Positions 27,390 to 36,867 of a stretch of 64,000 nt of DNA are shown here, piece after piece (position 1 is the stretch's first letter; each line of letters starts with the position of its first letter). The notes under the pieces were generated by a model that did no database searches, was not told the origin of the DNA, and was given only the letters and a program-made list of their open reading frames with translations. The position numbers were made by a program, and so were the translations under genes. Source of the stretch: Zychaea mexicana (Eukaryota > Mucoromycota > Mucoromycetes > Mucorales > Lichtheimiaceae); assembly GCF_025766255.1 (NCBI RefSeq), contig NW_026516680.1:62001-126000 (forward strand), given 5' to 3'.

Positions 27390-28361
27390 TTAGTTGTATT
27401 TCTTCAAATGGCAAGACCGCTTGCGATCCTGTGAAGTTGAAAAGATGCCATCGAAATTGGACACAGAGACAGTTGGACGGTGTCGCGAGGGTTGAAAGGG
27501 ATTGACAGAGCGGATGCAGAGTCGATGGAAGACATCAAGGACAAGCAAACCAAGTGGCATATCCATCAGCAGTTTGCGTAAATCACTCAAGTTATTCGGT
27601 AGCTGGAGAGTCCCTAATTCATACATGACATAGAGGCCTTCGGATGGCAACACCAAGAGATAGAAGGTAATGGATCGTCCAATGATTTGCAAACCTAGAA
27701 TACCCTCCAAGTTTTGTGCGTCGAGGGCATTCTTGTAAAATATCGCCACTCGGATCAGGTCCTTCGACAACAAAAAGTTGTTTGCTTCGTGGCATGCTGA
27801 TTTTACTTCACCGTATCCATGGCTGGTCGACCATTTCACACCTTTCAAGCTTGTAATGGTAAGATCGGGACGAGATGTCCACAAGGTTTCGTTTTTTCGC
27901 GCTTCGAATGTTATGTCGTTTGTCCATCGGAGAAATACCCCTTCTTCAGGATCATCAAACAGGCCACATAAAAACGTATCAACGAATCGGGTATTAAGCT
28001 CGGATTCGTTCACATCCTCTTCAATTGGCACACGAGGCAACTTCTTTACTAACTCGGCCAGGCCATTGGCAAATTTGCGTTCATCTGGCAAAAGATCAAG
28101 TTGCAGGAGTTTCACAATCGCTTGGCTGTGGCTGATTGCTTCGATGTCGAGTTCGTGTATAATGCTGATCATATTGGTTACCGTTTCAATTTGCACACGA
28201 GGCGAATTCAATCCATAAATGGACTTGATTTTGTTGATGGTCGCTCTGAGGCTGGCTTCACAGAAATGCGGTGACAAGTTGTCTGGATATTTGTTCGGTG
28301 ATAACAGTAAAATTGAATTGATTGCCATAGCATGGCGTCCTACTATTAGTTGTCTAACCAA
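27390..28361 (-). pseudogene. PD-(D/E)xK-nuclease-like gene, 3' part (separated by AT-rich element)
   Basis: Open frame of about 323 codons ending at 27390; it has no convincing own start (it opens at TTG after an in-frame TAA). It contains RPDLTI followed 17 residues later by GYGEVKSA, matching the P-D-x(n)-E-x-K core of PD-(D/E)xK nucleases, flanked by helices and a long alpha/beta region. The upstream half of the same-strand gene appears to be 32329-32760, on the far side of the 4-kb AT-rich element. Host-like base composition on both sides and the abrupt change at 28.37 and 32.34 kb support insertion. The two frames differ by one base at the junction, so the exact pre-insertion sequence is unresolved. 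Cellular function unknown. Confidence 0.6.
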
Positions 28362-28415
28362 TTATAACCTACTAGCTGTAATATAGATAATAAAATTGCT
28401 ATGATCGGTATAACC

Positions 28416-28473
28416 ATCAGTAGCCGAATTAATTATTGATTTACAATAAAAATAATAAAAATTGAATTTTTTT
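28416..28473 (+). repeat. left inverted terminal region of the AT-rich element
   Basis: Contains atcagtagccgaattaat and, further in, ataaaaattgaattttttt. Both have inverted counterparts at the right end (32223-32323). The alignment has gaps, so these are imperfect subterminal repeats rather than crisp TIRs. Confidence 0.55.
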
Positions 28474-28541
28474 ATTTATATTAGTAGCCTCCCATGAGAA
28501 AAAAAAGAGCGATTGTTTAAAGTACATAACAACAAATAAAA

Positions 28542-30020
28542 ATGAACACAATACAACACACTGAACAACTCGATATTGAAATTAAAAATTTAATTGATAT
28601 TAAATGGACTTTTCTTGATAAATCTTGGCCTGAAATGCAACATAGATTTAATCATAGAACAGCTATTAAAGATATGAAGAATAATACAATAAATGATATA
28701 AAGGATGTATTACTTAATAGATTTGGATTTATACCTGTATTTTATTTTCTTACAGTTTTATATGAAAATATTGAATATCCAGGGCCATACCGCGAGATTG
28801 AAAAAGGACTTACATTATTATATCATATGGTATCAGGTGTATCAGGAAAGGATATGCATACTGTTATGCTATATGCAACATTTTATGATTTATATAAGCA
28901 GTTCTGGATTACTAACTATAATGAATTGAATAAAAAGGTAAAATAAGATCTAGATAGTATGTTCTCATCACCACGTATTCGCATTCTATCAGTAATAATA
29001 AACAATCCAGATGGTTTTAAGAATGTTACACTATTTAATGATGGACATGATAGTAAAATAAAGTATTATAAACCAAATGAGTCACATTCACAGTTATATT
29101 CATATAAATTAAAAGGGCCAGCTGTACGTACACAAGTTATACAGGATATGAATGAAATAATTACACATGTTTCAGTATCTGAAAAATGTGCTATCGGAAA
29201 TGATGGTACTATGTTTATTAATATGAAACTATATAAAAAAATAAGTGAGGCAGATTGTTTAGGAATAGATGGTGGATATAACTTATTTATACAAAAGTTT
29301 AAAGATAATGCGACAGATGCTAGATATAGTTTTTATGATCGTAATTTTTTACATCCCATAAGAAAAGAACCAGGACAAAAGTTAACAATCAATGAGACAT
29401 ACTTTAATAACAAGTTTGGATCATTTCGTTCAGCAATAGAAGCACAGTTCTCTATGTTAGGCTCTAAATTTAAACGATTTAATAATAATCGTGCAGCATT
29501 GCAAATAACCGATATAAGATATTATAATATTCAGTTTCGTGTTGCTTGTATTCTTACTAATATATGGCGATTTGTAAATAAGTATAATATAGAGGTACAA
29601 CCACATCATAAATTATGGTATGGAAAAGATTTTGAATTCCCAAGTAAGAAAAACAAACTTGACTTAGTATTTTCAAATGAGCAAAAAGTAAATACTGAAT
29701 ATAACGAAATGGTTGATATGCAGCAGAAATTTCTACAGCTTAACATTAATCAATCAATAGATATGGCTATAGATAGTGAGGACGAAACTGAAAATAATAC
29801 ATCTAAACGCAAGAGAAAAAATCAAAGAGAACAGAGAAATATAGAACATAGTAATTCATATGAAATTGAGAAGATTGTAGGACATGTGTATACTGATAAT
29901 AAGTATATATTTGAGGTTAAGTGGGTTGGATATAGTGTAAAGGATAATAGTTGGTTAACAGTTGATAAGTTTAATTCCCGGGAAATGCTACATGAATATA
30001 TGGCCACACATGGTATTTAG
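28542..30020 (+). pseudogene. PIF/Harbinger-like DDE transposase with C-terminal chromodomain, one in-frame TAA
   Basis: Two same-frame pieces, 28542-28946 (134 codons) and 28959-30020 (353 codons), are separated only by TAA 28944-28946 and 12 bases. The first is a helical N-terminal domain ending YKQFWITNYNELNKKVK. The second carries the catalytic layout of DDE_Tnp_4: FNDGHDSKI (Asp28 of this piece), LGIDGGYNLF (Asp104), and FNNKFGSFRSAIEAQFSMLG (Glu161, the position matching RxxxE-FGxLK). Residues about 298-346 form a chromodomain: YEIEKIVGH, then FEVKWVGYSVKDNSW and LHEYM. A basic NLS-like KRKRKNQREQ precedes it. Chromodomains read methylated histone tails and can steer integration, as in chromoviruses. 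Whether the TAA is damage or was read through is discussed in the findings. Confidence 0.82.
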
Positions 30021-30022
30021 CT

Positions 30023-31845
30023 CTAAATTAATCTCTTACTTATTTGCTTATTAAAAAATTTCATATTGAAACTGACTGCATCAACTTTTCGTTTACTTGC
30101 CCAATTATATTTATGTTTTATGCATTCATTAGTTATACTTATACTTATATTAGTATCTGTTGATTTATTTTTGACGTCGGTTTCTTTTGTTATATCTATA
30201 TCATCTATTATAGCCTGTTTATATCCTTATGCTTTTTAATAGATTCTTTTGGCTGTATTTCTTCTACTTTTTGCTTGTTTCTCCGTTTATTTTTAATGTG
30301 TCTTTTTTTCTTTTTACGTTTTGGTATATTATTTGGTATGTTGCAGTCACTGCTTTTCTCTGATTCAGATGTACTTACATCTATGTATTTATGTTTCTCT
30401 ATATCTTCTGGTGGGTTTTCCCAATCAGTAGCATCATTTACAACATCATCACATTTTATATCATTAAACACATCTTCCCAATGCCTACAATCTACTGATG
30501 GTGGTACCTTTACAGTTGACTATCCTCTATTATTTTGTTGAGGCGGTTTATGTTGTTTATTGTTCTGTGTATTATTACTATTATGTTTTTCTTCTTGTTC
30601 CTTCATATATTCTTCTGTATCAGCTAATTCTTGTAGTTCCTCTACTGTTTTATCCATCGGTGTATATTTTTTAATATCATCCTGACCACTATTATGTGCA
30701 TAACAGATAAATGTATGCTGATCTTGGTATTCGTTTTTGAATTCACCTTTGTATAAGTCCTCATACATATCCATATTTTCATAATACATGAATTTATTTT
30801 CATAATCCTTCACCTTCATTGTGTATGAATTCCATATTATATGACCTTTACGGTTCTTATCAACATAGATAATATATAAACGATTGAGCGTTGGCTCTAA
30901 CTCATATACTGATTTGTTTTTGTATAACATGTGCGGCATATAGTTACTATTCAGTATTATTGGCATATTTTTCTTTTTAGTTATTGACTTTGTGAATTTG
31001 CCATTAAGTTTTAACCGTGTTCCTTCTAACATTTGGTTTAAAAATGTTAATTTGAAATCAGAACCTGTTTCTTCATTATACATAAAATCATAATCATCAT
31101 CCTTATAATCTGACCAATCATTTTCTTTATTCATTAGATATGCTCGATGGCCACCTTGTTCTAATACATCAATGCTATATGTCTTACCTACATTTGATGG
31201 ACCTACAATCCAGTATTATAGTACCTTATTTTTACCACCAAACATTGTTTCAATCCCAAACATAGACCACATATATAATTTATTTCCAGGGTTATTTTCC
31301 ATATCAGCATCATGAAAGTAAGAATTTAAATTAGATTTTACAGTATCATATTTAAATAGCAATTCTGGATATATTTCGGTAGCCTTCCACATATTAAGCT
31401 GCTTCGTAATTAATTGATATCCAAGTAACTGTTGGTGCATTTTTCTGGTCTTAACTTCATAATTTGGATCCATATTATAACAAATATAATCTTTTCCTTT
31501 CATACAGTAGCTAATGGACTTTTGTGGATTACCACCTGGTTCAATGTTTGGAGTGATACTATCAATAGTGAAAAACTTACGTGCAGTTCTAGTATCAAAT
31601 CGTTCATCTAATTGTATCCATATATGCACGTGTTTTTCGCCTGTTTCAGGTGCAATTTCATCACATGCAATTGCCTTTTCAATTTTATAACCAATACGGT
31701 CATGTTTAGTAAACCATTCTAATATCTGTTCTTTTGTTAAATGGAAATTTTTACAAATATATGTGAACAAGCCCTTAGTGTTTTGAAAGCGGAATTCTTT
31801 CTCACCCTATGAGGTAGCCGCACTAGAAGTGTTATCATTTAACAT
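30023..31845 (-). pseudogene. CRESS-type replication initiator (Rep): HUH endonuclease + SF3 helicase, disrupted
   Basis: From ATG 31845 the frame runs about 540 codons, broken by TAG 31807-31809 (codon 13), TAA 31216-31218 (codon 210) and TAG 30520-30522 (codon 442). A likely one-base loss near 30222 then shifts into a frame ending at 30023-30025. HUH nuclease motifs: LFTYICKNF (motif I), HVHIWIQL (motif II, His72/His74) and SISYCMKGK (motif III YxxK, Tyr113/Lys116). Helicase motifs: GPSNVGKTYS (Walker A, just after the TAA), YDFMYNEE (likely Walker B) and MPIILNSN (motif C). A long charged C-terminal extension makes it about 600 residues, far longer than typical CRESS Reps. Such proteins nick an origin and start rolling-circle replication. 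The host range of the ancestor is unknown. Confidence 0.85.
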
Positions 31846-32234
31846 TGCATCGGAAAATTGAGGATTTGAGGATTTGAGGATTTGAGGAATCTCACATATG
31901 CTCGAATTCTTCCAATGATTTTATTGCGTGCTTCATCCTTAGTTTTATTATCTACTTTAGCCTGTTTAAGGTCTTTTTCAGTTTCTGACCTCAGTTGTGT
32001 GACAAGAGGGTCATAATCAATATGCTGATGGTTTTCAGTAAGGTGTTTAGCTCTTTCGATTAAGAGCGTCAATGTAATTCCTAAAATAGGAACAAATTCA
32101 GCCATAATGGCTAAGAACGCAAGAAGGTTGAGTTGGTTCATGTCGATTGTTGAAAGAATAAAGATAAAAAATATAACAAATATATGTTGCTTTATATTCT
32201 GTGGTGTTATTTTTATATTAAGAAAAAAATTCAA
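31839..32234 (-). CDS. small membrane protein of the AT-rich element (unrecognised)
   Basis: 131 codons from ATG 32234, or 100 from the ATG at 32141, which starts MNQLNLLAFLAIMAEFVPIL. A strong hydrophobic segment (FLAIMAEFVPILGITLTLLI) is followed by a charged helical tail with QLRSETEKDLKQAKVDNKTK and GRIRAYVRFLK. If the longer start is used, a second hydrophobic segment (HIFVIFFIFIL) precedes it. The stop codon (31839-31841) overlaps the Rep ATG (31843-31845) in ATGTTAA, an arrangement typical of compact viral or plasmid genomes rather than fungal genes. The frame is intact, unlike its neighbours. No family recognised; a membrane or envelope-associated role is speculative. Confidence 0.5.
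   Translation of the reverse strand: MNFFLNIKITPQNIKQHIFVIFFIFILSTIDMNQLNLLAFLAIMAEFVPILGITLTLLIERAKHLTENHQHIDYDPLVTQLRSETEKDLKQAKVDNKTKDEARNKIIGRIRAYVRFLKSSNPQILNFPMQC
31854..31886. repeat. iteron-like 8-bp direct repeats upstream of Rep
   Basis: The octamer ttgaggat is repeated three to four times head to tail just upstream of the Rep ATG. Rep-binding iterons of circular ssDNA replicons sit in similar positions next to the origin. The repeats also lie inside the C-terminal codons of the small membrane-protein frame. I did not find a convincing nonanucleotide stem-loop. Confidence 0.45.
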
Positions 32235-32323
32235 TTTTTATTTTTTTCAAAAATTTAAATGTATGTATGCTAAGACATTCGTGCATGAATTATTTCAATA
32301 AAAATTAATTTGGCTATCCTGAT
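32223..32323 (-). repeat. right inverted terminal region of the AT-rich element
   Basis: Counterpart of 28416-28473: inverted ataaaaattgaattttttt at 32223-32241 and inverted atcag-gatagcc-aattaat at 32304-32323. The distance between the two blocks is longer than at the left end. Confidence 0.55.
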
Positions 32324-32328
32324 ATATC

Positions 32329-32772
32329 TTAGCTAATAAGCCAGCTAGGGTTACTAGATCGCATCAAATTCATCATAACCATGGCTGGTCCCCCATGGTG
32401 TATATGATCTTCAATGGTGAGCTTCCATTTTTGTTGTAAAATCGAATACTGGAATTTGTAAATTGTGTTTGTCACATTGAACTGCTGAGCGACAAAATGA
32501 TTATCATGGTTCATAGGTGGAAAAGACAAATCTTTTGGATCCAACAGCTCCATCTCCAGATAGCGATCTTCAGCTCTTGTGCTTGAGCACCGCTTTGTAA
32601 GAGATGTAATGCAATCGCTGTCATTCAGATGCTGCTGCGATGATGATTGTTCTTGATTATTGCTGCTTTCCTGTCGTTGTCGTAACGACGACGGCTCTTG
32701 ATTCTGGCTGTTGTTCTGCTGCTGTTGTGCTGTCGACTGTGATTCTGTAAGCTGGAGTTGATCGGATAATAT
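32329..32772 (-). pseudogene. PD-(D/E)xK-nuclease-like gene, 5' part
   Basis: Host-like composition resumes here. The frame (read downward from about 32772) begins DQLQLTESQSTAQQQQNNSQ, is Gln/Ser-rich for about 45 residues, then becomes globular: LEMELLDPKDLSFPP, NHFVAQQFNVTNTIYKFQ, LQQKWKLTIEDHIHHGG, and stops within the element border after SSNPSWLI. It likely continued directly into LVRQLIVGRHAM at 28361 before the AT-rich element arrived. A possible splice acceptor (cttacag) lies near 32745. Its own upstream exons are missing because a second AT-rich element abuts it at about 32775. Confidence 0.5.
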
Positions 32773-33215
32773 AATATTGAATTTAGTTTTATAATATAAT
32801 GTCATTATGTATGAAATAATACGACATGAACTGTCAAAAATTAACAATAAATACTGGCAATTTCTTGACTTTAACTATCCAATAGAAATATCTGAATATA
32901 AACATAGAGAAGAAATCAAAAATGTTAATAATATTCAACAAATTAAATAAGAATTAGTAGAAAAATTAGGTTTTACTAGTGTATTTTTCTTTTTGGTAAT
33001 AATTTCTATAAGATATGATTATAAATCACATAATAAGTATTTGATAGTTTTGAGGTTGAAAAAATTATAAAACATAGAAAATTTAAAAAAAGAATGAAAT
33101 TTTATATTAAATGGAAAGATTATGATGAAACATATAATGATTAGGTTTGGTAGGAAGATTTTAATAATGAAACAATTATTGAGGAATACTTGGCATCTAT
33201 TGAAAATAAGTAAAT
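32773..33215 (+). mobile_element. internally deleted relative of the AT-rich element
   Basis: ATG 32807 opens a frame, MYEIIRHELSKINNKYWQFL, whose later segment EEIKNVNNIQQIK-stop-ELVEKLGFTSVFFFL parallels the N-terminal domain of the 28.5-kb transposase (IKDMKNNTINDIKDVLLNRF, then GFIPVFYFL). After about 33045 it jumps, in another frame, straight to a chromodomain: FEVEKIIKHRKFKKRMKFYI, then KWKDYDETYND. TAA 32948-32950 and TAG 33142-33144 and 33151-33153 interrupt it. The DDE core is absent, so this is a non-autonomous derivative of a related but distinct lineage. Confidence 0.7.
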
Positions 33216-33299
33216 TATTAAAAATGTATTGTTTAAAACAGTACAAAATGTTGTTCTATTGAGTTTCTACCTCCAATTTTATCAATCTTTATATTATTA
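33216..33299. other. AT-rich spacer
   Basis: Very AT-rich sequence between the deleted element and the Merlin-like remnant. Nothing supported. Confidence 0.4.
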
Positions 33300-33659
33300 T
33301 CAATATTTTTTCTAAAAATTTTTATGATATTTTATAGCTGTTTTATGATTAATACTTAAACTTTTAGAAATACTAGTTATTGGTGTTTTTTTAAAAAATT
33401 CATATAAAATATGTTATTGTTAATGAGTTGGTAGTTTCATTTTTGTAAATATTGTATCTTTAAATAGTGAATATGTTTTTCTATATTTATAATATTTACA
33501 AACATATAATTTTCGTTTATAATTAAATTTAATATTATTATTTTTACATTTGTCACATATATCTCTTTTTTTTATATATTTATTATCTAGTAAATAATTT
33601 ATTCCATCAACTTCATTATCAAAAGCTTTCTTTAATATATGGTAACTTTCTATAAACAT
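33300..33659 (-). pseudogene. Merlin/ISXO2-like transposase N-terminal remnant
   Basis: From 33659 the frame begins MFIESYHILKKAFDNEVDGI and contains a zinc-ribbon pattern CDKC-x(15)-VCKYY, in which the last Cys is Tyr. It then reads KTYSLFKDTIFTKMKLPTH, which matches the RxxFSxxxGTIFxxxKLP layout of ISXO2-type transposases. After stops the same frame continues with ILYEFFKKTPITSISKSLSI and NHKTAIKYHKNF, the expected following helices. The catalytic DDE part is missing. The remnant is extremely AT-rich. Confidence 0.6.
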
Positions 33660-33797: not shown

Positions 33798-36700
33798 CAA
33801 CAGTGTTCGTTTTTTTTAACAGATACAGTCGGAAGCTCAAGCTTGCTATCAACAACTGGGTATTCAGTATGAACAGTAAACATGAGAACTAAAAATCGTA
33901 TCAAAGGTTGTCTCTTCTTCAGATCCAGTATGTTAAAACATGTATCAAGTGACAAGATATATTAAGAATCCAAAATACTCGTGACGAAGTCTGAATTGTA
34001 CAGTAGTATGCTTCGTCTTACGCGTCCAAATATACAAAGAACGATACCATGCTCAGTATTATGAAATAATTACTGAATACAAGAAGGATAAGCGTGATAG
34101 CATTACTGTATGTTTGCTTGCACACCCTGAAATATATAAGTATATGCAGTCAAATTGTATATAAACAGTTAAAGAATTCCTTATTGCCCTGTAGTATAGT
34201 ATGTAAACGTGACATATGATAAATTCAGTAAGTACATAATGTTCTAAAACTTCATCATCGATGGCCCTCATTGGTGATATCATTATTTTCTCTTCTTTCT
34301 GTACTTTTTTCATTTTTCTGGTTTTTTTGTCTTGCTCTTTTTGTTTTGTTTTCTTATCATCTTTCTTAAAAAGTATGTATGGGAAAAGAGATATAAGGAA
34401 TGGCACACACGGTCGTCGGTTCGGCTGATAATGACCCTAAACTTGGGATTGTGGTCGGTTCCGAATTCGATAGTTGCATTGTGTAGGGTGTCGAATACAA
34501 CATCAAGCTGGTCTAGGAGCTGTATACGATTTCGTGATGTCTCCCGTAACCGCCAACGCAAGCAGCCGTTGTTTTGATTTGTGGTATGATGCTTCTATGC
34601 CACTTGGCAAGTATCTACATTTCTGAGAAAGCATATCAGTATTCGTGCCCGGCCTTGTCTTTTGTAAACATATAACATTAGAAGCTGCATGCTGCATATT
34701 GACTACGTACCTGATAGATGTGTTTTTTTTTCAAAGAAGCACCATTCATTTTTAGAAAGCCAGCTTGGTAAGCAAGCTACCTACAATCTATGTGGATTAT
34801 ACAGATAAGCAGTATTGAGTAATTTTTCGTTTTGTTCAAAGCGATTAAGTATAAAATAGCAAATACTGTAGTAAGATTGCTATTACATTTACCTGATCGA
34901 GAATTTTTTTTGCTGGTTTTCTTTCTTATTTGTAGGTGTTATATCTGTGTGTTTGTTTTTGGCTGCTGCACTGGCGGTATCAAAGATTGTAAGCTGTTTG
35001 CTTTAAGCTGAACATAATACGCAGATCAAGTGTTGTCGCTCAAACTTTACTCAGGTGTCTGACTGGAGGACTTGTCATTTCAAGGCGTCAAAGTCATTCG
35101 CTATCTATACAACCCTGTCAAGACACAATATGCGAGGTTCTGGAGCTACGAAGTCAAGCCCTTTCAAGGCTGCTACTATATGCAAACAGTCCGTTGCGCA
35201 TAACTATTCAATCCTGGAAATGAGGGTAAGTTATAGTGTTTTTTTTAAAACGGTCGAAGATACTGGTTCTAACTGCAGACCATAGTAATTGATAAATGAA
35301 AATATAAAAGACTGGCGGCACCAATCATCATATGGTCTCCTCGTTGCAAGGATTTCATCATTCCTTATTTCTGTTTCAACTTTGAATTTCATCTTTTCGT
35401 TTTCTGTTTCTCTTTCAACTTTGCACTTCATATGTCATTCCCTCATTGGATGGTAAGTAAAACAAATAGTTGGAAATGCTGATGATATTATTATTATTCT
35501 AGTTTAGAAACATGTACTACATCCCATACACCAAAACAACACAAAGGCACATACGGATCGGATCGGCACGAAACCCTTGCACCTATCCTAATCTTCAATT
35601 ACAACGAACCTGAATATCGGCGAGTGAACTGGCAAGACAAGCATTCACACAAAAGCAAATAGCTTACAATCTTTGATACCGCCAGTGCAGCAGCCAAAAA
35701 CAAACACACAGATATAACACCTACAAATAAGAAAGAAAACCAGCAAAAAAAATTCTCGATCAGGTAAATGTTATAGCAATCTTGCTACAGTATTTGCTAT
35801 TTTATACTTAATCGCTTTGAACAAAACGAAAAATTACTCAATACTGCTTATCTGTATAATCCACATAGATTGTAGGTAGCTTGCTTACCAAGCTGGCTTT
35901 CTAAAAATGAATGGTGCTTCTTTGAAAAAAAAACACATCTATCAGGTACGTAGTCAATATGCAGCATGCAGCTTCTAATGTTATATGTTTACAAAAGACA
36001 AGGCCGGGCACGAATACTGATATGCTTTCTCAGAAATGTAGATACTTGCCAAGTGGCATAGAAGCATCATACCACAAATCAAAACAACGGCTGCTTGCGT
36101 TGGCGGTTACGGGAGACATCACGAAATCGTATACAGCTCCTAGACCAGCTTGATGTTGTATTCGACACCCTACACAATGCAACTATCGAATTCGGAACCG
36201 ACCACAATCCCAAGTTTAGGGTCATTATCAGCCGAACCGACGACCGTGTGTGCCATTCCTTATATCTCTTTTCCCATACATACTTTTTAAGAAAGATGAT
36301 AAGAAAACAAAACAAAAAGAGCAAGACAAAAAAACCAGAAAAATGAAAAAAGTACAGAAAGAAGAGAAAATAATGATATCACCAATGAGGGCCATCGATG
36401 ATGAAGTTTTAGAACATTATGTACTTACTGAATTTATCATATGTCACGTTTACATACTATACTACAGGGCAATAAGGAATTCTTTAACTGTTTATATACA
36501 ATTTGACTGCATATACTTATATATTTCAGGGTGTGCAAGCAAACATACAGTAATGCTATCACGCTTATCCTTCTTGTATTCAGTAATTATTTCATAATAC
36601 TGAGCATGGTATCGTTCTTTGTATATTTGGACGCGTAAGACGAAGCATACTACTGTACAATTCAGACTTCGTCACGAGTATTTTGGATTCTTAATATATC

Positions 36701-36867
36701 TTGTCACTTGATACATGTTTTAACATACTGGATCTGAAGAAGAGACAACCTTTGATACGATTTTTAGTTATCATGTTTACTGTTCATACTGAATACCCAG
36801 TTGTTGATAGCAAGCTTGAGCTTCCGAAATTCCGTTACTGTATCTGTTAAAAAAACGAACACTGTTG
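33798..36867. repeat. large inverted repeat, 1.2-kb arms with 0.65-kb spacer
   Basis: The left arm (33798 to about 35005) and right arm (about 35651 to 36867) are reverse complements with only a few differences: an extra 9-10 bases near 36829-36838, a G/T change near 33884 and a T/A change near 34887. Both arm ends carry caacagtgttcg. The arms belong to the same family as the diverged copy at 13985-14745. The right arm abuts segmental duplication copy B. The arms contain short open frames (for example the one with VFDTLHNATIEFGTDHNPKF) but no recognised gene. A foldback transposon, a recent head-to-head insertion, or an assembly artefact are all possible. Confidence 0.9.
35006..35650 (+). other. 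spacer of the inverted repeat with host-like coding scraps
   Basis: Unique sequence between the arms. A frame at 35055-35285 includes DWRTCHFKASKSFAIYTTLS. Another near 35520-35666 includes LAPILIFNYNEPEYRRVNWQ and ends TAG. Both have protein-like composition but no recognisable family, so captured host exon fragments are possible. Confidence 0.35.

Follow-up and report, generated by a model that had tools for sequence, protein, structure and literature searches.

The element and its two genes

The DNA investigated here, referred to as the window, is a stretch of 64,000 nucleotides from the fungus Zychaea mexicana (contig NW_026516680.1, positions 62,001 to 126,000; C79:62001-126000 within a genome of 50.3 Mb on 305 contigs). 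It contains an element in which a gene for a DDE transposase (gene 1; Tnp) and a gene for a protein with a viral-type Rep core (gene 2) converge, and the Rep and the PHIS-type transposase belong to one mobile unit. A sequence-only reading of the window had placed a single unit of approximately 4 kb at 28374-32340; the unit was found again, but its limits had to be corrected to 28334-32393, where the copies in the genome lose similarity at both ends. Outside the right end, the mean difference among copies amounted to 61-64%. The unit is AT-rich, as had been noted, with a G+C content of 29.5% versus 42.8% in the 20 kb leftward and 43.6% right of 36500; the stretch immediately to the right of the element is likewise AT-rich. 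The following features were located (window coordinates, with strand where one applies).

27393..28330, minus strand: host gene, downstream part; member of a multi-copy family
28331..28333: target duplication CAT, left copy
28334..32393, no strand: element, 4,060 bp
28334..28358, plus strand: left tip, conserved across subfamilies
28449..28481, plus strand: left arm of the subterminal inverted repeat, 33 nt, 91% complementary to 32215-32247
28542..30020, plus strand: gene 1, DDE_Tnp_4 transposase, interrupted between 28542-28946 and 28959-30020
29064..29561, plus strand: DDE_Tnp_4 domain, residues 36-201 of the open reading frame (ORF) 28959-30020
29859..29969, plus strand: HP1-like chromodomain, residues 301-337
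30023..32141, minus strand: gene 2, Rep-fusion accessory protein, present in the window copy as several open pieces in three frames
30028..30115, minus strand: C-terminal tail of gene 2, common to Rep-less accessory proteins; YNWASKR at 30089-30109; limits by eye
30900..31230, minus strand: SF3-type ATPase core, assigned by motif, limits by eye; LNSNYMPH at 30931-30954
31480..31797, minus strand: HUH endonuclease core, outer limits by eye; FTYIC at 31753-31767
31842..32141, minus strand: N-module of gene 2, its most divergent part (~19% over 13 copies)
32215..32247, minus strand: right arm of the subterminal inverted repeat
32371..32393, minus strand: right tip
32394..32396: target duplication CAT, right copy
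32397..32847, minus strand: host gene, upstream part, adjoining the other part in the paralogues C179, C297 and C157

The ends of the unit had been described as inverted. An inverted repeat of 33 nt does exist, but it is subterminal, and the outermost 40 nt are not inverted with respect to each other. When these outermost stretches, written by eye, were compared as inverted repeats, 524 of 1000 shuffles were equally good; the similarity between the left and right end regions was equalled by 2 of 500 shuffles. Searches of the genome with the end patterns yielded 61 left and 51 right matches, and the reversed-pattern control yielded 0.

Gene 1 encodes a transposase of the DDE_Tnp_4 type, in agreement with the sequence-only reading (Pfam PF13359, E 5.6e-11, in ORF 28959-30020). 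Its start at 28542 lies upstream of the ORF given there, and uninterrupted ORFs of 494 aa are present in other copies. The chromodomain was recognised by Pfam (PF00385, E 1.6e-6), and the family profile of Tnp matched the solved HP1 chromodomain 1kna with an E value of 6.1e-10. Among 30 database relatives scanned out of 95 found, DDE_Tnp_4 was detected in all 30 and a chromodomain in 22. An alignment of 20 sequences showed the D of DGHD and the E of the IE motif to be invariant and the D of DGGY nearly so; with its residues assigned by motif, the DDE triad was complete in all 20 genomic Tnp copies, and seven of the 20 Tnp segments were free of stops. Genes 1 and 2 converge with stop codons 2 bases apart (30018-30020 and 30023-30025), exactly as had been read. 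The Tnp stop of the window lies slightly earlier than elsewhere, and in copy L014 the convergent ORFs overlap by 4 nt.

The Rep motifs HVHIWIQL (31609-31632), SISYCMKGK (31492-31518) and GPSNVGKTYS (31174-31203), already named from the letters, all lie in one frame of the minus strand. Long ORFs of 688 aa (L044) and 764 aa (L056, counted from TTG) showed Rep to form the central part of a larger protein, which consists of an N-module, a serine-rich linker, the HUH domain, the Walker A ATPase core, a charged stretch and a tail (module names were coined in this analysis). Judged by its sequence, the HUH domain is of the geminivirus type: its family profile matched two solved domains, 1l2m with an E value of 7.8e-8 and 9pqq with one of 6.6e-10. 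Gemini_AL1 was found in 11 of 15 relatives when E values up to 1 were allowed, the best being 2.3e-8, with the window copy below the Pfam cut-off. The ATPase core is putatively assigned to SF3 by motifs only; PF00910 (SF3) gave a weak match in 2 of the 15 relatives, and the profile of the core matched no solved structure. Pfam gave no Myb/SANT match in gene 2, either Rep-bearing or Rep-less, and nothing useful was obtained from NCBIfam and PHROGs. A capsid gene was not found in the window unit, where every ORF of at least 100 aa is a fragment of gene 1 or gene 2. An ORF of 64 aa lies at 32107-32301 (plus strand), and shorter ones were observed inside both genes.

Copies, insertion and selection

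Genome-wide, at least 117 matches to Tnp and at least 83 to Rep were found (the Tnp figure rests on scoring 115 of 702 first-look candidates). Of the 117 Tnp rows, 36, corresponding to 34 elements, are followed by a convergent Rep at a distance of 1,181-1,216 nt downstream. Pairing of ends within 9 kb gave 33 elements, 29 of them with both genes, some as fragments only; three carried Rep only (C115B, C194, C234) and one Tnp only (C223, in which just the tail end of gene 2 is left). All 18 paired elements of 4.00-4.08 kb contained both genes. C13/C141, C46a/b and C79b/c share flanks owing to their position in duplicated segments, so approximately 15 of these 18 are independent. Five both-gene elements longer than 5 kb may contain other insertions or result from wrong pairing, and 28 of the 61 left and 18 of the 51 right ends had no partner. 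The count of Rep-less elements is too low, because the right-end search pattern was of the Rep type; two such elements with both ends, C112 and C115A, exist beyond the 33 paired ones. The idea that both genes always lie together between the same ends holds for most paired elements but not for all, since Rep-less and Tnp-less elements occur.

Both flanks were read at 23 insertions, C13 and C141 being taken as one, and the 3-nt flanks were identical in 13 cases, compared with a mean of 1.34 and a maximum of 7 in 20,000 rounds with shuffled partners. The duplications were CAT, AAT, ATG, AAA, TGA, TAG, ATT, CTT, TTT, GAG, TTA, TGT and ATG; at C115, TGA is found on the outside of a two-element tandem, and for the ATG duplication of C291 an altered tip was assumed to have the usual length. 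Among the insertions with non-matching flanks, C46b, C79b and C35a (right flank) share one flank with another copy, suggesting recombination between copies. In the window, the unit separates two parts of a host ORF which are 3-6 nt apart and in the same order in the paralogues C179, C297 and C157. The upstream part was 25-35% and the downstream part 45-52% identical to these paralogues, of which C179 and C297 contain one stop. Matching duplications and the split host gene demonstrate that the whole unit was inserted in the cut-and-paste manner. The DDE enzyme is the most likely agent of insertion, because 13 of the 23 insertions have identical 3-bp flanks; its role as inserter is inferred from the enzyme class. 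The host gene that was split is one of a large family; its downstream part had 73 matches in the genome, without a Pfam match at E up to 0.1.

The Tnp proteins of C112 and C115A are 96% identical to that of the window and lie between the same kind of ends, while their gene 2 lacks Rep: linker and tail are common to both versions, but the N-part is different and the middle contains cysteines. C112 is flanked by its own AAA duplication, which indicates insertion of an element lacking Rep; Rep is therefore an accessory that is dispensable in cis for insertion. Two elements of ~1.15-1.19 kb with related tips, L088:2919-4070 and L091:38-1222, showed only a Rep-less accessory gene. Six distant Tnp loci (45-58% identical) were also read. 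Two of them (L063, L066) have a small ORF convergent at the place of gene 2, L061 has a small ORF on the same strand as Tnp, and three have no linkable ORF of at least 100 aa. These small ORFs (L061:1226-1918, L063:1945-2286 and L066:2357-2794) contain cysteine/histidine clusters and gave no Pfam match above the cut-off; a similar cluster was seen by eye near the C-terminus of the Rep relatives P0012 and P0013.

The ratio of nonsynonymous to synonymous differences (pN/pS), calculated from ungapped segments of 27 of 30 Rep and 20 of 30 Tnp loci fetched, was 0.195 when pooled over the 27 Rep copies versus 0.62 in a neutral simulation (per pair 0.32-1.70; pairs are not independent). At the level of sequence this shows Rep to be under purifying selection. 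Stops were absent from 16 of the 27 Rep segments and present in 11. Both HUH histidines were present in all 27 genomic copies, and the tyrosine and the lysine of motif III each in 26. Among the 13 of 16 database relatives looked at, HUH was intact in 11 of 12 covering the region and Walker A in all 12 reaching it. The window copy is broken, as the sequence-only reading had stated, with stops in both genes and frame changes in gene 2; the family mostly keeps the catalytic residues.

In the Tnp/Rep copies L001-L060, changes at C and G were mostly C-to-T, as expected in methylated, silenced repeats. C-to-T cells in Tnp numbered 42 of 600 at CpG, 91 of 2,760 at CpA, 37 of 1,960 at CpT and 8 of 940 at CpC; in 24 of the 27 Rep segments the values were 37 of 384 (CpG), 73 of 1,920 (CpA), 37 of 960 (CpT) and 19 of 840 (CpC). 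CpA-directed repeat-induced mutation was consequently rejected as the cause of decay, and methylation-type decay fits better, because C-to-T is most frequent at CpG.

Further features were noticed to the right of the element. By eye, a remnant of a second, diverged Tnp-chromodomain element adjoins the first at 32767-33250; an N piece resembling Tnp lies at 32849, and pieces resembling a chromodomain lie at 33097 and 33184. The ORF at 33420-33659 (minus strand) contains a four-cysteine zinc-ribbon-like motif (weak match to PF08063, E 0.063) and, by eye, resembles the N-terminal part of a transposase of the IS1595/Merlin type. Further on, 33829-35004 and 35652-36827 form a perfect inverted repeat of 1,176 nt, 100% complementary and 647 nt apart, which arose either by fold-back duplication in the very recent past or as an artefact of assembly.

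Proposed mechanism and competing explanations

Taken as a whole, the findings are best explained by a PHIS-type transposon that is inserted by its DDE enzyme and carries Rep as an enzymatic accessory, a reading to which a probability of about 0.6 is given. The chromodomain DDE transposase would recognise the two dissimilar tips, perhaps together with the subterminal repeats, and would insert the element with 3-bp duplications. The accessory gene comes in alternative versions, with the HUH-SF3 Rep core between N-module/linker and tail in the common 4-kb version. Rep might then nick and unwind excised or replicating element DNA and so provide more copies for the transposase, a tentative step that is given somewhat less than even odds. 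That Rep acts enzymatically is most likely, because selection keeps the H, H, Y, K and Walker A residues.

Several observations weigh against this explanation. Flanks did not match at 10 of the 23 insertions, and the pN/pS of Tnp (0.43, 20 copies) lies inside the neutral interval of 0.27-1.70. The relative P0011 lacks the second histidine of HUH, and the YxxK motif is present in 10 of 12 relatives, P0005 and P0016 being without it. The origin nonanucleotide NANTATTAC, typical of circular Rep-encoding single-stranded DNA (CRESS) viruses, has two occurrences in the window element, each within a gene, and was not found outside the genes of that element; the left tip carries TACTATTAG, which matches it at 8 of 9 positions. 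Neither the alignments of Rep and of Tnp nor P0010 detected viral relatives in IMG/VR, and no relatives were detected in prokaryote genomes (Rep alignment) or in plasmids and phages (P0010), in searches made with few peptide patterns or one query and without a positive control. Both the activity of Rep and the circles are putative. Finally, Tnp and Rep distances were uncorrelated (Mantel r 0.10, p 0.33, 7 paired copies). Divergence between copies is also unequal, i.e. ~2% for Tnp (10 copies) and 4-8% for the Rep core as against the far higher value of the N-module, and together these data suggest that the parts differ in history and are exchanged among elements. Rep and Tnp are accordingly not tied in descent, as Rep-less and Tnp-less elements share the end type, and module exchange is evident from the accessory gene, whose linker and tail stay the same whether or not a Rep core is present.

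The Rep core might instead be a DNA-binding accessory only, which takes the transposase to the ends in place of a Myb/SANT partner while its nicking and ATPase activities remain unused on the element. The Rep-less versions with the same linker and tail, the convergent small ORF at the gene 2 place in two of six distant Tnp loci (L063 and L066) and the failure to find an origin speak for this possibility; however, H, H, Y, K and Walker A are mostly kept over ~50% protein divergence, which is beyond the needs of binding, and the explanation, although it is the main rival, is rather unlikely. A captured endogenous CRESS-virus gene that travels as a functionless passenger would account for the many broken copies, including the 11 of 27 Rep segments with a stop, but is improbable in view of the low Rep pN/pS (0.195) and of relatives in several genera that retain the catalytic motifs at ~50% identity. 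HUH enzymes are able to transpose DNA, so that Rep itself could do the moving, either like a Helitron or by viral integration, with the DDE gene as the passenger; the 3-bp duplications and the Rep-less element C112 with its own duplication make this very improbable. Least credible of all, with hardly any probability, is nested insertion or an assembly artefact that brought together Rep and transposase from separate elements. The region is rich in other elements, and Tnp-only and Rep-only elements exist, but all 18 elements of 4.00-4.08 kb contain both genes at nearly fixed spacing, and a single 3-bp duplication surrounds the window unit. The sequence-only reading had itself named separate elements with their own ends as the finding that would speak for nesting; the gene content of the paired elements refutes nested insertion, which was rejected, and its one-unit claim survived.

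Seven head-to-tail junctions were found (C51:10313, C79:237469, C115:38319, C194:10362, C53:15914, C174:4106 and C303:10350), in each of which a 15-nt spacer links a right end to a left end; when read outward from the left end, the spacer is close to AATTTTAAAAATTCA. The spacer was not found genome-wide beside one end alone at up to 3 mismatches. In C115 and C174 a Rep-type right end is joined to an ordinary left end, and the right sides of these two junctions have different nearest copies. C79, C51 and C194 combine a Rep-type right end with the left end of an element in which the accessory but no Tnp was found, the C51 and C194 junctions looking like duplicates of one event; C53 and C303 combine an accessory-type right end with an ordinary left end. 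The junctions stem either from one old tandem that recombination has since rearranged or from a circular phase marked by the spacer. They hint at possible rolling-circle replication of the element by Rep. A replicon with a dual lifestyle, in which a circle with spacer-joined ends would be multiplied by Rep and would re-enter the chromosome through the DDE transposase, is unlikely; the same low odds apply jointly to its supposed components, namely circles of Tnp with Rep, of Tnp with the Rep-less accessory and of the accessory only, with the junctions as their scars. With this family, copy gain of a DDE transposon by extrachromosomal self-amplification becomes testable.

Relation to known systems

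The family is old and reaches beyond this genome. Relatives were found in Rhizopus stolonifer, R. arrhizus, Circinella minor and further assemblies, with 36-89% identity over part of their length. The nearest named ones were often from C. minor, with Rep pieces 56-89% and Tnp up to 78% identical. Rep relatives of the same build measure 626-797 aa, and shorter ones occur in R. stolonifer, R. arrhizus and C. minor. For Rep P0011 and Tnp P0039 the longest contig has 4,459 bases in each case, possibly one and the same contig.

Helitrons carry a RepHel protein and make no target duplication. In the present element neither gene gave a RepHel Pfam match, and 3-bp duplications are present. Features are shared with three other groups. 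Like CRESS-DNA viruses (PMC6668415), the family has a single protein that contains both HUH motifs I-III and a Walker A core, SF3-like by motif; unlike them, it shows no capsid gene and no recognised origin, is chromosomal and multi-copy and has extra modules, and it is not called a CRESS virus here. Terminons, the giant retroelements of rotifers (PMC6431247), likewise carry a Rep accessory on an element moved by another enzyme, but they are retroelements, telomeric and large. The PHIS superfamily comprises PIF/Harbinger, ISL2EU, Spy, Pangu and Nuwa (Han et al. 2015, PMC4482050), and the present element agrees with it in the DDE_Tnp_4-type transposase, the two genes, the 3-bp duplications and the size of ~4 kb. 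It differs in the HP1-like chromodomain on the transposase, the Rep core in gene 2 and the lack of a Myb/SANT match; other PHIS elements with unusual extra genes (TET/JBP) have been described (PMC12730594). The transposase had been called PIF/Harbinger-like. DDE_Tnp_4, the DDE triad and the 3-bp duplications support the superfamily, but not PIF/Harbinger proper: of the 13 duplications only one (TTA) agrees with the TWA preference of that group, the tips lack the terminal inverted repeats and gene 2 the Myb/SANT match expected of it, and none of the target preferences given for PHIS groups in the available text of PMC4482050 fits the duplications as a set. The transposase is therefore placed in the PHIS superfamily, outside PIF/Harbinger proper.

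A cut-and-paste transposase and a viral-type rolling-circle Rep, enzymes usually treated as separate worlds, are joined in this family, which offers a present-day model for the exchange of replication genes between single-stranded DNA viruses and transposons. The sequence-only reading had regarded the combination as a new composite. This part did not hold, because a repeated transposon of the truffle Tuber melanosporum, published in 2011, joins a Rep-like ORF with two transposase ORFs between terminal inverted repeats, in a genome with 42 geminivirus-like Rep genes or remnants (Liu et al. 2011, PMC3198968). As described in the available text of that paper, with which the comparison was made by description only, both are multi-copy fungal units with a geminivirus-like Rep, transposase ORFs and inverted repeats. 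The Tuber element, from Ascomycota, has two transposase ORFs of unstated type, 37-bp terminal inverted repeats and no obvious target duplications; the element from Z. mexicana has 3-bp duplications, one DDE_Tnp_4-chromodomain gene, dissimilar tips with a 33-nt subterminal repeat, and a Rep that is fused into an accessory protein. No other element combining Rep with a Harbinger-type transposase was found in the literature searched, which did not extend to preprints and most subscription papers. Within that literature, the PHIS-type chromodomain transposase as a partner of Rep, the 3-bp duplications and uninterrupted paralogues of the target, and the fusion of Rep into an accessory protein that is exchanged with a Rep-less version are new.

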